In this document: positions 3,501 through 15,545 of the stretch, one piece after another | Numbering within the stretch: the first letter of the stretch is position 1 | Layout: every line of letters starts with the position of its first letter | DNA from: Halobaculum saliterrae | GTDB taxonomy: Archaea; Halobacteriota; Halobacteria; Halobacteriales; Haloferacaceae | Reading direction: 5' to 3' | NCBI RefSeq assembly: GCF_009831625.1 | Contig: NZ_WUUS01000001.1 | Coordinates: 372,301 to 436,300 of the forward strand | DNA length: 64,000 nt | Made by a program: the position numbers and the translations under genes | The notes under the pieces: model-generated | The model's database searches: none | The model's input: the letters and a program-made list of their open reading frames with translations, nothing else | Told to the model about the DNA's origin: nothing

Positions 3501-6248
<2,748 letters not shown>

Positions 6249-6252
<4 letters not shown>

Positions 6253-7337
6253 GCGGTCACCTCCCCGTCGGCCGTGCGCCCGGTTCCGCGGTCGGAGTCC
6301 GCGCGCGGGTCCCGCCGCGAGACGCCGTAGGTCACGGGTCGGTCCGAGCGGAAGTCCGCGAACTCGTGGTCCTCCCCGCCCACGGAGACGCGCACGCCGT
6401 CGGCCTCGCCGTACACCGTCACGTCGGCGTCCGCGTCGGCGACGCGGCCGGGGCCGATCACCGCGAGCCGTTCGAGCAGTCGCACCTGACTGCCCCGCTC
6501 GCCCGTGACGGTGAGCGTTCCGTCGGGCAGCGAGACGTCGACCGGAACGCCGTCCTCGACGAGCGCGAGCGCGAGGCTCGCGGTCGCCTCGGCCATGCCG
6601 TCGTCGGCGCCGGGGGCCGCGGCGGCGCCGACGGCGACCGAGACCGCCTCGGTCTCGGCCTCCGCGGAGAACTCCTTGACGATGAGGTCGTCGCGCTTGG
6701 CGGTCGACTTCCAGTGGACGTCCCGCAGCGAGTCGCCGCGGTCGTACTCGCGGAGGCGGTCGAACTCGCGGCGCTCCTCGTGGACGCCCGTCTCGTGGAG
6801 CGCACGCAGGTCGCGACGGGCCCAGCCGGCGATGGCGTGGACCTCGGGGTAGACGAGCACCTCGCTCGTCGTCGTCGACAGGTCCGTCTCCGCGAGCCCG
6901 AGCGCGTCGCGGGCGGTCACCGCCGCCGGACCGAGCCGGTGGCGACCGCGCGACTCGTAGGTCACCTCGTACTCGACCGGAACCGCGCCGACGACGGTCT
7001 CGAAGACGAGCCGGTCGGCGTCGATGCCGCCGCCGACGCGCTCGCGGACGGCCCCCGCGAACGGGCGGTCCATCCCCGCCTCGGCGCTCGGACGGGGACC
7101 GTCCGGATCGCCGAAGAACAGCCGGACGGGGTAGGTCCGCCCGACGTGGTCGTCCGGCGGTACGTCGCGCGCGACCGCCGGCGGCTCGACCCAGCGGAGC
7201 TGGAGGTAGGCGGCGCTCAACGCGACGACAGCGGGCACGACGACGGCGTTGAGCGAGCGCGGGCCGAACGCGAGCCCGGAGACCACGGCGACGACGCCGA
7301 CCGCGACGACCGCCTTCCCGCGTCGGGTGAGCCGCAT
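6249..7337 (-). CDS. DUF58 domain protein (MoxR-associated, vWA-like)
   Basis: This 362-residue protein has two N-terminal hydrophobic segments (about residues 8-45), then a soluble part. The DUF58 signature lies near residues 195-220: LREYDRGDSLRDVHWKSTA followed by a lysine/glutamate-rich stretch. The C-terminal part resembles a von Willebrand A fold. It is the middle gene of a MoxR-DUF58-transglutaminase operon: the MoxR stop is 2 nt upstream and the transglutaminase start overlaps its stop by 4 nt. By analogy with MoxR/vWA pairs it probably works with the ATPase in assembly or activation of an envelope complex. The target is not known. Confidence 0.9.
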
Positions 7338-8377: not shown

Positions 8378-8687
8378 GCGGCACACACCTCGGCGGAGGA
8401 GTACACCCGGATACGAGCCGTCTGGGTGCCGTTCACAGCCCATGTCAGGGGCCGGACGGACCTAACTCTGCCGCATGCGGACGTGTGTCACATCGGAGCG
8501 ACGGCGCCGCGCTCCGGACCGGTGTCGAGCGCTCCGGATCCGAACGCAGCCGACCGGAGCCGACCGGAGCCGACCCGATCGCTTCGGGTGGAACCCGTCC
8601 GACGGTCGTCCGCCGCGCGGCCGGCGGGACGACTGAGAAAACGTTAGGGTGGTCCGATCCCGAGAGGGATCCGATCCGGTTCGATTC
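8378..8687. other. Intergenic region between divergent MoxR and methyltransferase-like genes
   Basis: This 310-bp stretch must hold the promoters of both flanking genes. I see no convincing small gene in it. It contains a short tandem repeat, GCCGACCGGA, nearly three copies at 8549-8576. No strong TATA element could be fixed for either side. Confidence 0.6.
8549..8576. repeat. 10-bp tandem repeat, 2.8 copies
   Basis: GCCGACCGGA occurs twice in a row, followed by GCCGACCC. It lies 112-139 bp before the start of the methyltransferase-like gene. The significance is unknown. Confidence 0.7.
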
Positions 8688-11024
8688 ATGTCAGACACCC
8701 CATACGGTTCGTACGGAGCCGGCTTCGTGGAGCGCGTCGTCGAGGCGGCCGACGGCGTCGAGGCGACGCTCGACGCCGACGCCGGCGCCGAACAGGTCGC
8801 GGCGTCGCTGTGTGCGGCGCTGTTCGGCGACGTGCTGGGACACGACCCGGCGGCGTACGAACTGGACGGACGCGTCGCTCGCGTCCGTGACGGCGACGGC
8901 GCGGTCGCGGTCACCTTCGCCGCCGTCGGTCGCGACGCCGCCGACGCCGGGGCGGCGGTGGTCGCGGCGTTCGAGGCCGCCAGCGACGAGCCGACGGCGC
9001 GATACGTCGTCGCCGGCGGCGTCGACCGACTGCTCGTCTTCGAGCGGGTCGGCGACGGGGCCGTCCATGTGGACGATACCGACGGCGACGCCGGCGGGGA
9101 CGGCGTGGACAGAGAGACCGTGGACGGGGAGGACATGCGGACCGTCGCGGGGGTGACGGCGGTCACCCACGCCGAGATCCCGCTCGCGAGGATCGTCGCC
9201 GCCGGCCGGCAGGGCCGCCTCTCACAGACGCTTCGCCCCGGCCAACAGCTCGCCGTGGCGAAGCTCACGGCGCTTCGCGCCGGGGAACTGTCGGCCGTCG
9301 GCGCCGGGGACCCCGACGGGACCCCGACCGATCGCGAGGACGACGGCACCGCGTCCGAACACGAGGCGACCGACGACGGGCCGGGGGCGATCGCCGAGAC
9401 CCTCCGGGACCGCCTCGACGACCTCCTCGCGCCGGCGGTCGAGGCGGCCCACGCACGCCTCGTCGACGACCTCGACGGCTACGACGACCGGGCGGCGGAT
9501 CTCCGGGAGGAGGTCCGCGACGCCCGTCGCGGCGACGGCGACGAGACCGCCGCCGGTCCCGCACGGCGACGACTGCTGGCGCACGAGTGCGCCCACGCCG
9601 GCGCGCGGGCCCTGCGTGCCGCCTACGGCACGTGGGTCCGCGGCGCGGGGCGGACGGGGTTCACCCCCTCGGAGAACCGTCGGGCGTTCGCCCGCGTCGT
9701 CGCGTTCCAGCTCGTGGAGGAGGCGCTGCTGGACCGGACCCTCGCGGGAGCGGGGGTCCTCGACGCGACGCTGACCGGGGATGCCCTCGGCCGCCTGACG
9801 GCGTTTGCCGACGACGTGGGCGTCGACCGCGACGCGGGCGACCTGTTCGCGCTGGCCCGCGAGCGCCGGGCGACGGTGTACGACCGACGTGCGCCGGACC
9901 TGGCCGGGTGGGCGCTCGACGACGACGGCGTCCGCGAGGCGCTGTCGCGGACCGTCGACGCGCTCGACGTCGCCCTCGCCGACCTCGACGGCGAACCCGA
10001 CCCGGAATCCGACCCGGACCCGAACCCGACCCGTGCGGCGACCGCGTACGACCGCCTGTTGTCGGCGGCGGATCTCCCCGGAGTCGACACGGACCCCCAC
10101 GGCGCCGACCGGAACCCTGCCGCTCCGGATCCGCTGTCGGACCCACTGCCGGACGCCCTGCTCGACGCCGCCGGCTATCTCGACTCCGTGGCGGGGGCAG
10201 ACACCGCCGTGGGCGAGCCGACCGACCTCGGCGGCGACCTCCTCGACCCCGCCGTCGGCGACGGTCGATACCTGCTCGCGGCCGCCGCGCGACTGCGATC
10301 CGAACTCGCGGACGTCGATCCCGCCGAGCGACTGCGGGCCGTCCGCGAGCGGCTGACGGGCGCGAGCCCGGATCCCCTCGCGTGTCGCGTGACCGAGACG
10401 CGGCTGCTGTTGCAGCTGCTCGACGATTACCGGGCGGCGCGGCAGGAGGGCGACGGGTTCACCCTGGACTCGCTTCCGGTGTACCGGACGGATCCGTTGA
10501 TCCGCGACGAGCACGACCCCGCCGCGCTCGCACGCGAGGACTACGACTACGTGGTCGGCGCGCCGCCGGCGACGCTGCGGCGCGACGTGGCCGACGGCCC
10601 GGTCGCCGACGCGTACGCCGGGTACGAGACGGCGTACTACACCTACGACACCTCCGCGCTGTACGTCGAGCGCGCGAGCGAGTGGCTCGCCGAGAACGGG
10701 ACGCTCGCGCTCCGGGTCGCGGGGCGCTTCCGCGACACGCGGTGCGGCGAGAAGCTCCGGGAGCGCCTGCCCCAGTGGTACCGGCTGGAGGAACTCAGGG
10801 AGGTTCCGGGGGAGGCCGCGGGCGGGACGCCCGTCCTGCTGGTCGCGCGGCGCTTCCGGAGGAACGAGCCGTTCACCGACCCCGAGGAGTACGAGCCGCC
10901 GACGTACGGCTTCACGTACGCCGAGGGGCTGGACGACGAGGGCGTCCGCCGGTCGTCGAGCCGGCTGACCGCCGAGCACTGGGACTGGGACGCCGACGGC
11001 GACGACGACGAGATCGGGATCTGA
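8688..11024 (+). CDS. Degenerate Eco57I/PglX-like N6-adenine methyltransferase homologue
   Basis: This 778-residue protein has the layout of large type IIG/PglX adenine methyltransferases but lacks their catalytic motifs. Residues 520-529 read DPAVGDGRYL where active enzymes have DPACGSGxFL (AdoMet binding). Residues 622-628 read VVGAPPA where active enzymes have VVGNPPY, so both the catalytic asparagine and the aromatic residue are gone. The following region (ALYVERASEWLAENGTLALR, then CGEKLRERLPQWYRLEEL) matches the family's post-motif-IV helices. The first 500 residues are helical and acidic with no recognised domain. The ATG at 8688 begins the first family-like sequence. It lies 79 bp upstream of mutS on the same strand. 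A structural or DNA-binding role is inferred, not shown. Confidence 0.65.
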   Translation: MSDTPYGSYGAGFVERVVEAADGVEATLDADAGAEQVAASLCAALFGDVLGHDPAAYELDGRVARVRDGDGAVAVTFAAVGRDAADAGAAVVAAFEAASDEPTARYVVAGGVDRLLVFERVGDGAVHVDDTDGDAGGDGVDRETVDGEDMRTVAGVTAVTHAEIPLARIVAAGRQGRLSQTLRPGQQLAVAKLTALRAGELSAVGAGDPDGTPTDREDDGTASEHEATDDGPGAIAETLRDRLDDLLAPAVEAAHARLVDDLDGYDDRAADLREEVRDARRGDGDETAAGPARRRLLAHECAHAGARALRAAYGTWVRGAGRTGFTPSENRRAFARVVAFQLVEEALLDRTLAGAGVLDATLTGDALGRLTAFADDVGVDRDAGDLFALARERRATVYDRRAPDLAGWALDDDGVREALSRTVDALDVALADLDGEPDPESDPDPNPTRAATAYDRLLSAADLPGVDTDPHGADRNPAAPDPLSDPLPDALLDAAGYLDSVAGADTAVGEPTDLGGDLLDPAVGDGRYLLAAAARLRSELADVDPAERLRAVRERLTGASPDPLACRVTETRLLLQLLDDYRAARQEGDGFTLDSLPVYRTDPLIRDEHDPAALAREDYDYVVGAPPATLRRDVADGPVADAYAGYETAYYTYDTSALYVERASEWLAENGTLALRVAGRFRDTRCGEKLRERLPQWYRLEELREVPGEAAGGTPVLLVARRFRRNEPFTDPEEYEPPTYGFTYAEGLDDEGVRRSSSRLTAEHWDWDADGDDDEIGI

Positions 11025-11103
11025 GCGGCGTCGGGGAAGCCGAACCGATCGCCTCGGTGCGAAACCCTTTCGCCGCTCGCCCGCCCCCCTCACAGTCGAG
11101 AAC

Positions 11104-13860
11104 ATGGTCACGGGAGCGCCGGCGACGATGCTCGACCGCCGGGAGGAGCTGACGCCGATGCTCGCGCAGTACGTCGACGTGGCCGAGCGGTACGACGACG
11201 CGGTCGTCCTCTTTCGCGTCGGCGACTTCTACAAGGCGTTCTGCGAGGCCGCCGACGAGGTCGCCCGGATCTGCGAGCTCACCCGGATCGAGCGCGAGGA
11301 CTCCACCGGCACCTACACCGCCTGCGGCATCCCCGTCGACAACGCCCCGAAGTACCTGAAGCGCCTGCTGGACGCCGAGTACCGCGTCGCCGTCGCCGAC
11401 CAGGTCGAGGACCCCGAGGAGGCCTCCGGTCTCGTCGAGCGCGCGGTCACGCAGGTGCTCACCCCCGGCACCGTCGTCGAGGAGGAACTGCTCGCGGCGG
11501 GGTCGAACACCTACGTCGCCTGTGTCGCGACCGCGGCGGGCGGATCCGAGAAGGAGTCCGAAGGGAACCCCGCCTACGGCGTCGCCCACGTCGACGTGTC
11601 GACCGGCGAGTGCGCCGTCACCGCCGGCGACGCCGCCGCGGTCGACGAGGAGCTCGCGCGGATCGGCCCCGCCGAACTGCTGTGCGGCCCCGGGGTCGAC
11701 CCCGCCGTCGTCGACGGCGCCGACTGCATGCGCACTGAGCGCGACCCGGAGACGTTCGAGCCCGACGCCGCCCGCGCCGTGCTCGACCGCTACGCCGAGT
11801 CGGAGCGCTTCGACGCCGCCGAGCGCGTCGCCGCCGGCGCGCTGTTGTCGTACGCCGAGTACACCCAGGGCGACGACGGCCCGCTGGAGTACGTCCGTCG
11901 CGTCCGACGGTACGACCCCCGGCGCTCGCTGCGGCTGGACGCGACCGCGCTCAGGGGGCTGGAGCTGTTCGAGAACCACGTCGGCTCCGGCCGGACGCTG
12001 TTCGACACGATCGACGAGACGCGCTCGGCGCTGGGACGGAGGCGCCTGCGCGCGTGGCTTCGCCGGCCGCTCGTCGACCGCGAGGCCATCGAGGCGCGCC
12101 ACGACGCGGTCGCGGCGTTCGCCGAGCGAACGCTCGTTCGCGAGGACGTGCGCGAGGCGCTCTCGGCCGCCTACGACCTCGAACGCCTCGCCGGGCGGAT
12201 CTCCCGGGGGCGGGCGGACGCCCGCGACCTCCGGTCGCTCCACGACACGCTCGCGGCGGTGCCGGCGATCCGCGACGCCGTCGCGGACGTGGAGGCGCTC
12301 GCCGAGGTACGCGCCGATCTCGACCCGCTCGACGACCTCCGGGAACTGATCGACGCCGCCGTCGTCGAGGAGCCGCCACAGGAGATCACCGACGGCGGAG
12401 TGATCCGCGCGGGCTACGACGACGAACTCGACGAGGTCCGGTCGACCGCCCGCGAGGGACGCGAGTGGATCGCGAACTTAGAGGAACGCGAGCGCGAGCG
12501 CACGGGCATCGACAACCTGGAGGTCGGCTACACGCAAGTCCACGGCTACTTCATTGAGGTGACCAACGGGCAACTCGACAGGGTTCCCGACGACTACACC
12601 CGCCGCCAGACGCTGAAGAACTCCGAGCGGTTCTACACGCCCGAGCTGAAGCGTCGCGAGGACGAGATCCTCGGCGCCGAGGAGCGCGCGGACGCCATGG
12701 AGTACGAGCTGTTCGCCGACCTCCGCGACCGGGTCGCCGAGGAGTCCGACCGGATCGGCGCGCTGGCGGACGCCGTCGCCCGCGTGGACGCGCTTTCGGC
12801 GCTCGCGACCGCCGCCGTCGAGCGCGACTACGTCCGGCCCGAGATCGTGGCGGGCGCCGACGCGACCGGCGGCGACACGGGCGACAACGACGACGGTATC
12901 CACCTGAAGCGCTCCCGACACCCAGTCGTCGAGGAGACCGAGCCGGAGTTCGTCCCGAACGACGCCGACCTCCCGCGGGGGACCGTCGCGCTGATCACCG
13001 GCCCGAACATGAGCGGGAAGTCGACGTACATGCGGCAGGTCGCGCTCGCGGTCGTGCTCTCGCAGGCGGGGTCGTTCGTCCCCGCCGAGACGGCCCGGCT
13101 CCCCGTGGTCGACCGCGTGTTCACCCGCGTCGGCGCCAGCGACGACATCGCCGGCGGCGAGTCGACGTTCATGCGCGAGATGCGCGAGCTGACCGACGTG
13201 CTCCACGACGCGACCGGCGACTCGCTGGTCCTGCTCGACGAGGTCGGCCGCGGCACGTCGACGACGGACGGCCGGGCCATCGCCCGCGCCGCCGTCGAGT
13301 TCCTCCACGACGAGGCCGGCGCGACGACGCTGTTCGCGACCCACTACCACGAGCTGACGGACCTGGCCGACGAACACGACCGGGTCGTGAACCGCCACTT
13401 CGCGGCGACCGAGCGCGACGGGGAGGTCACGTTCCTCCACCGGATCCGCGAGGGCGCCGCCTCCTCGTCGTACGGCGTCGAGGTCGCCGACCTCGCCGGC
13501 GTCCCCGACTCGGTCGTCGCCCGTGCGCACGACCTCGTCGCCGCCGACCGATCCGACGCGGGCGACCGGTCGGCCGCCGGCGACGACACCGTCGAGGCGA
13601 CGCCCCAGCGAACCCTCGACGAGATCGCGACGAACGGGCACGACACGTCGTCCCCCCCGGCGGCGTCCGGGTCGCCCCGCCACGACCCCGCGGTCGCCGG
13701 CCTCCTCACGGACCTCCGCGACCTCTCTCTCGCGGAAACGACGCCACTGGAGGCGCTGAACAGCCTCCACGAGTTCCAGCGGCGTGCCGAGGAGGCGGGC
13801 GACGTCAACCGCGACGGCTACGACGACGACGGCGCCGTACCCGGTGGTGGGGGACAGTGA
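11104..13860 (+). CDS. mutS: DNA mismatch repair protein MutS (MutS1 type)
   Basis: This 918-residue protein has the full MutS1 layout: mismatch-binding domain I, connector, core/lever, clamp, and the C-terminal ATPase with Walker A GPNMSGKSTYM at residues 633-643 and a Walker B region ending LLDEVGRGTST. An acidic, Pro/Ser-containing linker (about 815-865) comes before a short C-terminal helix region. In domain I the phenylalanine that stacks on mismatched bases is kept (F42), but the partner glutamate is lysine (FYK at 42-44). The stop overlaps the GTG start of mutL, so the two are coupled. Haloarchaea often carry several MutS proteins; this one may be a divergent paralogue. Confidence 0.95.
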   Translation: MVTGAPATMLDRREELTPMLAQYVDVAERYDDAVVLFRVGDFYKAFCEAADEVARICELTRIEREDSTGTYTACGIPVDNAPKYLKRLLDAEYRVAVADQVEDPEEASGLVERAVTQVLTPGTVVEEELLAAGSNTYVACVATAAGGSEKESEGNPAYGVAHVDVSTGECAVTAGDAAAVDEELARIGPAELLCGPGVDPAVVDGADCMRTERDPETFEPDAARAVLDRYAESERFDAAERVAAGALLSYAEYTQGDDGPLEYVRRVRRYDPRRSLRLDATALRGLELFENHVGSGRTLFDTIDETRSALGRRRLRAWLRRPLVDREAIEARHDAVAAFAERTLVREDVREALSAAYDLERLAGRISRGRADARDLRSLHDTLAAVPAIRDAVADVEALAEVRADLDPLDDLRELIDAAVVEEPPQEITDGGVIRAGYDDELDEVRSTAREGREWIANLEERERERTGIDNLEVGYTQVHGYFIEVTNGQLDRVPDDYTRRQTLKNSERFYTPELKRREDEILGAEERADAMEYELFADLRDRVAEESDRIGALADAVARVDALSALATAAVERDYVRPEIVAGADATGGDTGDNDDGIHLKRSRHPVVEETEPEFVPNDADLPRGTVALITGPNMSGKSTYMRQVALAVVLSQAGSFVPAETARLPVVDRVFTRVGASDDIAGGESTFMREMRELTDVLHDATGDSLVLLDEVGRGTSTTDGRAIARAAVEFLHDEAGATTLFATHYHELTDLADEHDRVVNRHFAATERDGEVTFLHRIREGAASSSYGVEVADLAGVPDSVVARAHDLVAADRSDAGDRSAAGDDTVEATPQRTLDEIATNGHDTSSPPAASGSPRHDPAVAGLLTDLRDLSLAETTPLEALNSLHEFQRRAEEAGDVNRDGYDDDGAVPGGGGQ

Positions 13861-15545
13861 GCCGCGACACCGAGGCCGACGCACCCGCGGTCCGCGAACT
13901 GTCCGAGGACAGCGTCGAGCGCATCGCCGCCGGCGAGGTGGTCACCCGCCCGGCCCGCGTCGTCGCCGAACTCGTGGAGAACGCGCTCGACGCCGGCGCC
14001 GAACGGATCGAGGTGGCCGTCGACGGCGACGGGACCGACCGGATCCGCGTCGCCGACGACGGCCACGGCATGAGCCGAGAGAACGCCGTTCGCGCGGTCG
14101 AGCCCCACACGACGAGCAAGATCCGCTCGGCCGACGACCTCCGCGAGGCGGCGACGCTCGGCTTCCGCGGCGAGGCGCTCGCCGCGATCGCCGACGCCGG
14201 CGACCTCGAACTCGTGACGAGCGACGGCTCGGCGGTCGGAACGCGAGTGACCGTGGCGAGGGACGGAAAGACGGTCGAGGACGCCGGCCGCGCCCGCGGC
14301 ACCACGGTCGTCGTGACGGACCTGTTCGGCGACCGGCCCGCGCGTCGGGAGTCGCTGGCGTCGCCGGCGCGGGAGTTCGGTCGGATCTCCGAGCTGCTCA
14401 CCTCGTACGCGCTGGCTCGGCCCGACGTGGCGTTCTCGCTCGAGCACGACGGCCGGGAGACGGCGTCGACGCCAGGGACCGGGCTCCGGGACGCGTTGGT
14501 GGCGCTGTACGGCCGCGAGACCGGCGGCGAGTCGACGGCAGTCACCCACCGAGCCGGGGTCGACCTCGTCGACCGAGCGGCGGACCTCTCGGTCGAGGGA
14601 CGGCTCTGTTACCCCTCCACGACGCGCTCGACGCGCGATCACGTCCACGTCGCGGTGAACGGCCGGCCCGTCCGCGCCGACGACCTCCGTCGGGCCGTCG
14701 CTCGCGGGTACGGGAGCCTGCTCCCGAACGGCCGGGAGCCGGTCGCCGTCGTTCACCTCGATCTGCCCGCGTGGGCGGTCGACCCGAACGTCCACCCCGC
14801 GAAGGAACGCGTCGCGATCCGCGGCGGCGACGCCGTCGCCGACGCGGTCGAGTCCGGCGTCCGGGAGGCGCTGACGACCGCCGACCTCCGCAGGTCGGGG
14901 GAGGTCGCGATGGACCTCGACTCCTCGCTCGCGCCCGTCGAGGCGACCGAGTCGGATTTCGCCGACGCGACGGTGCTCGGTGTCCTCCGCGACCTGTACG
15001 TCGTCTGCGAGTCGGGCGGGGACCTGGTGGTGGTCGACCAGCACGCCGCCCACGAGCGCGTCAACTTCGAACGTCTCCGGGCGTCGCTCGCGGAGGAGGC
15101 GGTTCCGTCGGCCGAGTTGGACCCGGCGGAGACGGTGACGCTGGACCCGCCGACGGCCGCCGCCGTCGAGGAGCACCGCGAGGAACTGGCGACGCTCGGC
15201 TTCTCGGTCGACCCGTTCGGCGGGACGACCTACCGCGTGACGGCGGTCCCGGCGCCGCTGGGGCGCGTCGCCGACGCGGGGACGCTCCGCGAGGTCGCCG
15301 CCGACCTCCGCGAGTCGGGCGGACGCGGCGGCGCGGACGCCGTCCGGGACGATCTGCTCGCGGATCTGGCCTGCCACCCGTCGCTGAAGGCCGGCGACGC
15401 GCTCGACCGCGAGACGGCGGCGCGGCTGGTCGAGCGACTCGGCGAGTGCGAGCAGCCGTACGCCTGTCCACACGGCCGGCCGACGGTGCTGTCGGTGGCG
15501 GCGTCGACGCTGGCGGACGGGTTCGAGCGGCACGGCTCGCGGTGA
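13857..15545 (+). CDS. mutL: DNA mismatch repair protein MutL with endonuclease motif
   Basis: This 562-residue protein has an N-terminal GHKL ATPase (motifs ELVENALDAGA, DDGHGM and TLGFRGEAL) and a C-terminal dimerisation/endonuclease domain. Residues 394-405 read DQHAAHERVNFE, a full match to the metal-binding endonuclease motif D-Q-H-A-x2-E-x4-E. A C-P-H-G-R-P motif near the C-terminus completes the site. It is therefore expected to nick DNA itself, as in organisms without MutH. The GTG start shares four bases with the mutS stop, so translation is coupled to mutS. Confidence 0.95.
   Translation: MSRDTEADAPAVRELSEDSVERIAAGEVVTRPARVVAELVENALDAGAERIEVAVDGDGTDRIRVADDGHGMSRENAVRAVEPHTTSKIRSADDLREAATLGFRGEALAAIADAGDLELVTSDGSAVGTRVTVARDGKTVEDAGRARGTTVVVTDLFGDRPARRESLASPAREFGRISELLTSYALARPDVAFSLEHDGRETASTPGTGLRDALVALYGRETGGESTAVTHRAGVDLVDRAADLSVEGRLCYPSTTRSTRDHVHVAVNGRPVRADDLRRAVARGYGSLLPNGREPVAVVHLDLPAWAVDPNVHPAKERVAIRGGDAVADAVESGVREALTTADLRRSGEVAMDLDSSLAPVEATESDFADATVLGVLRDLYVVCESGGDLVVVDQHAAHERVNFERLRASLAEEAVPSAELDPAETVTLDPPTAAAVEEHREELATLGFSVDPFGGTTYRVTAVPAPLGRVADAGTLREVAADLRESGGRGGADAVRDDLLADLACHPSLKAGDALDRETAARLVERLGECEQPYACPHGRPTVLSVAASTLADGFERHGSR

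Follow-up and report, generated by a model that had tools for sequence, protein, structure and literature searches.

X, the 778-residue product of the open reading frame at positions 8688-11024 of the Halobaculum (Haloferacaceae) DNA analysed here (a stretch of 64,000 nucleotides, referred to as the window), is probably a type IIG restriction-methylase relic, co-opted and without catalytic activity. The protein is expected neither to cut, nor to methylate, nor to read specific DNA sites, and its preserved helical and methyltransferase-core surfaces may act as a binding scaffold. X would be a clear-cut natural example of a restriction-modification enzyme which is devoid of its three defining activities and whose protein is still under selection. 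The reading frame contains no internal stops and its Eco57I match (PF07669, residues 556-701) reaches 27.6 bits as compared to the Pfam gathering score of 25.3. Both the frame and its GAPPA motif IV are confirmed as described in the first-pass annotation. The features of the locus are compiled in Table 1.

Table 1. Features of the X locus, with positions given in window coordinates
Feature	Positions	Strand	Basis
TgpA-like transglutaminase (TgpA_N, Transglut_core, DUF4129)	3916..6252	-	domain scan
DUF58 protein	6249..7337	-	domain scan
MoxR-family AAA+ ATPase, the invariant divergent neighbour; translation may start at a more internal codon	7340..8443	-	domain scan, locus comparison
Putative X core promoter GAGAAAACGTTAGGGTGG	8635..8652	+	aligned element only where X is present; promoter role inferred
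X, type IIG homologue of the Eco57I family, truncated and catalytically dead	8688..11024	+	translation, Pfam, profile alignment, motif table
Nuclease-like N-terminal domain, X residues 10-125	8715..9062	+	motif table; HSDR_N_2 in active relatives
Helical connector, X residues 236-440, homologous to that of active relatives	9393..10007	+	profile alignment
Motif I (SAM-binding loop), DPAVGDG, X residues 520-526, retained	10245..10265	+	motif table
Dead motif IV GAPPA, X residues 624-628 (most active relatives read GNPPY here)	10557..10571	+	motif table
Post-motif-IV segment, X residues 641-771, no TRD after it	10608..11000	+	alignment, pN/pS
Putative mutS core promoter CGAAACCCTTTCG	11060..11072	+	conserved whether X is present or absent; promoter role inferred
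MutS, neighbour outside the X unit	11104..13860	+	NCBIfam equivalog
MutL, neighbour outside the X unit	13857..15545	+	NCBIfam equivalog

Kinship with active type IIG enzymes and the motifs lost

The fold assignment of X rests on sequence profiles; structure prediction from two sequences yielded a model too poor for use (pLDDT 36.6). Alignment of the X-like proteins with the active type IIG group by hhalign returned a probability of 100 and an E-value of 4.7e-80, whereby columns 2-691 of 723 and X residues 2-746 were covered, with 28% identity over 682 profile columns. As this comparison covers almost all of X, its N-terminal half is taken to correspond to that half of a type IIG enzyme which comprises the nuclease-like domain and the helical part, and X possesses the nuclease-helical-methyltransferase architecture of this class. 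The earlier description of the N-terminal 500 residues as having no named domain is superseded, as these residues align over their whole length with the nuclease-like and helical regions at the N-terminus of the active enzymes. The active-looking relatives are about 1200 aa long, come from several families and are not linked to moxR in the regions read. Two of them were scanned and revealed Eco57I, N6_Mtase and TaqI_C together with a weak N-terminal HSDR_N_2 match (24.4 bits, just below the 25-bit cut-off). In a sequence search of solved structures active relatives matched BseCI, LlaBIII, LlaGI, BsaXI and MmeI, and the same type of search with the dead-family profile gave nothing at E <= 0.01. 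Dead homologues were found in one family (f1) only, where they are distributed over four genera, i.e., g1 (Halobaculum), g6, g78 and g8, and mostly comprise about 730-830 aa, given the start codons used here; viral contigs scanned with the dead and the active profiles contained no relatives. Haloarchaeal type IIG enzymes of the Eco57I family (PF07669; e.g., G219 L078 and G339) are arranged like X, with an N-terminal nuclease-like domain followed by the helical connector and then the methyltransferase core, whereas the nuclease E-x-K, motif X, NPPY and the TaqI_C target-recognition domain (TRD) are missing from X, which is about 450 aa shorter and fixed beside moxR. HVO_A0079 from Haloferax volcanii has also been named as a type IIG enzyme with an Eco57I domain (PMC5867850). 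The initial PglX-like naming of X had to be abandoned: the Eco57I-type methyltransferase core is common to PglX and X, but the catalytic motif of X is dead and its PglX score of 14.7 bits, compared to the curated NCBIfam cut-off of 400, rules this identity out. No BREX genes such as those for PglZ and BrxC were seen among the identified neighbours of X, and searches of the literature on MoxR-DUF58-transglutaminase systems and on haloarchaeal and pseudo-enzyme methyltransferases returned nothing on the X gene.

Comparing 15 aligned dead homologues from the locus with 10 active relatives revealed no overlap between both groups at the nuclease E and K, at F, Y and P of motif X and at N and Y of motif IV. 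Both nuclease residues, E and K, are present in all ten active relatives and absent in 15/15 dead homologues, in which the active D..E-x-K became V/S/E .. A/T-x-V/A/T, and X is thus devoid of a PD-(D/E)xK nuclease motif. Likewise, F and Y of motif X (FYTP) are gone in each of the 15, the alignment being gappy there, and an intact NPPY, which would have spoken against a dead enzyme, was not encountered at the locus, as none of the 15 proteins keeps N or Y. The first-pass annotation was right in stating that both residues are absent; they belong to motif IV alone, however, and motif I is not defective. Its D-P-A-x-G-x-G occurs in every homologue, whether dead or active, whereby the loop varies by C/V and S/D changes only, with S changed to D in the dead ones. 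Of the SAM motifs of a type IIG enzyme, X consequently keeps motif I and has lost motif X, and the motif II acid is lost in Halobaculum and g6. As to the conservation of APPA, the exact motif is not kept outside the genus, but N and Y are missing from every homologue at the locus: motif IV reads APPA, APPT or SPPA in Halobaculum, RFPA/AFPA in g6, RFPT in g78 and DPPN/DAPT in g8. The C-terminal TaqI_C of the active relatives is missing, with X ending before it, and no C-terminal or TRD remnant was found in the X flanks; since the TRD is absent, site-specific DNA reading is not expected of X. Truncation was stepwise, as more of the sequence leading up to the TRD survives in the g8 proteins, and the order of loss is partly readable, given that more of the C-terminus and of motif II is retained in the g8 homologues than in those of Halobaculum.

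Selection, neighbourhood and descent

Within Halobaculum, the dN/dS of X (Nei-Gojobori) is about 0.27-0.45, as compared to 0.21-0.29 for MutS and 0.05-0.22 for MoxR, the value of X thus lying above that of moxR, and its pN/pS amounts to 0.26-0.44 with all codon-bootstrap intervals below 0.54; all these values are approximate, a simple method having been applied to G+C-rich genes. The most constrained part of X comprises residues 641-745 (pN/pS 0.17-0.26, about the level of MutS) and its linker evolves fast (pN/pS about 0.7). The frame is open in nearly all bearers from the four genera; the copy of H. litoreum (G205) carries frameshifts, which were put down to sequencing error because mutL and the genes for DUF58 and transglutaminase are also broken in the same assembly. 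The dN/dS together with a post-motif-IV segment as constrained as MutS argue that X is not a case of simple decay and that its remaining core is under purifying selection. The earlier view of a pseudo-methyltransferase whose core is preserved rather than simply decaying is borne out, with dN/dS, pN/pS intervals and motif table in agreement.

Identification of MutS and MutL as NCBIfam equivalogs confirmed that X resides directly upstream of mutS-mutL in the window. The constant neighbour, as would be expected for an accessory of the MoxR operon, is moxR, which divergently adjoins X wherever X is largely complete, counting the partial match of G240 and the frameshifted G205. On its far side five different arrangements were identified, namely mutS in Halobaculum, ThrC in g8 and G279, a nicotinate phosphoribosyltransferase-like gene in G104, a superoxide dismutase-like gene in G326 (both names read by eye from sequence) and an inverted mutL behind a small ORF in G280. 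Within g6, the gene downstream of X is a different one in each of the genomes G104 (L064), G279 (L063) and G280 (L067), and the far side of X thus seems prone to rearrangement. Adjacency to mutS is confined to Halobaculum and hence unlike that of a MutS-linked factor, as the orthologues in three other genera have other far neighbours (or an inverted mutL). The junction of moxR and mutS without X was found in g3, g5, g7, g9 and g12 as well as in the Halobaculum genomes G209 and G210 and is, judged from this distribution, the older one. The box CGAAACCCTTTCG upstream of mutS is near-palindromic, occurs once in the window and is conserved in Halobaculum genomes whether or not they carry X; it is possibly a BRE/TATA element or an operator. 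Restriction to one genus, moxR-mutS junctions without X elsewhere and a mutS box independent of X together indicate that the mutS adjacency of X is incidental. A striking adjacency can thus be incidental and a duller neighbour, here moxR, the conserved one. X is the constant divergent neighbour of MoxR-DUF58-transglutaminase operons in four genera, whereas most of the sampled Halobacteriales operons stand without it, the operon transglutaminase being present in 167/195 genomes of the order and X in few.

The dead homologues fall into a single clade (87/83, subject to a long-branch warning), in which Halobaculum, g6 and g78 group with 100/100, the monophyly of g8 with the others being moderately supported only. 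In the moxR-operon tree all X bearers are grouped (96/93), and both trees reveal the same genus branching, (g8,(g78,(g6,Halobaculum))). Placing X presence on the moxR-operon tree requires five changes, a count which itself cannot tell gain from loss; the simplest scenario fitting the data is a single acquisition next to moxR in the common ancestor of four genera of the Haloferacaceae, followed by vertical descent and four losses. X was lost with the moxR operon remaining in G209, G210, G203 and two g8 genomes, hence it is dispensable. In Halobaculum G203 (L073:8000-8260) a remnant is still in place, in which a short piece of the N-terminus is fused to the final few codons at a GAC-rich repeat; this is a deletion caught in place.

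Possible functions of X

The likeliest partner or target of X would be the divergently transcribed MoxR-DUF58-transglutaminase system, a tie which we propose tentatively and which is less probable than the relic reading itself; adjacency to moxR may also reflect simple inertia, and neither gene order nor constraint by itself demonstrates a function. As the operon persists without X in most Halobacteriales, X would be an optional accessory at most. The more specific proposal of a ligand-responsive regulator or adaptor of the MoxR AAA+/DUF58/transglutaminase envelope system, possibly binding SAM via motif I, is quite unlikely. The main rival to a co-opted relic is a slowly decaying one, once useful or selfish, now weakly constrained and repeatedly lost, which we regard as unlikely, though it carries some weight: the four losses in the X-bearing clade, including the G203 remnant, the variable motif IV and the fast linker are in line with it, but the frame stays open in nearly all bearers of four genera, the pN/pS intervals are far below 1 and the post-motif-IV segment is about as constrained as MutS.

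Pairing of X as a non-catalytic partner with an active methyltransferase encoded elsewhere, as in METTL14-like pairing, or with another defence protein is distinctly improbable. The genome does encode other N6-methyltransferases and a core segment usable for pairing is conserved in X, yet a direct search of this genome, with only one match to X at E <= 0.001, revealed no homologous active relative, and a co-localised partner was not found. That X still methylates by a different chemistry is very improbable: the motif I loop on which this would depend is nearly invariant, but motif X, the catalytic N and Y and, in Halobaculum and g6, the motif II acid are lost. Moreover, the exchange of DPPW to APPA, made on purpose to abolish activity, yields a catalytically inactive METTL3 whose motif IV is identical to that of X (PMC6787028), a likeness which is an analogy only, METTL3 being a eukaryotic RNA methyltransferase. 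Strongly disfavoured is the idea, put forward in the first-pass annotation, that X is a pseudo-enzyme which binds DNA and serves mismatch repair as a sensor of methylation or strand state. It was prompted by the position upstream of mutS-mutL in Halobaculum, but this adjacency occurs in one genus, the gap between moxR and mutS predates X, mutS has its own promoter-like box, relatives without X possess mutS-mutL, and X has no TRD with which to read DNA.

Outside the window, the genome of X contains a region in two copies of 92-94% identity, L192 (G000:C12:1-14000) and L193 (G000:C13:87000-101829), each with two divergent type IIG-like methyltransferase ORFs adjoining an HKD+Snf2 helicase. The two copies carry the segment L192:5086-7129, which is flanked by 288-bp inverted repeats, in opposite orientations; this suggests that these ORFs may form a phase-variable invertible pair.
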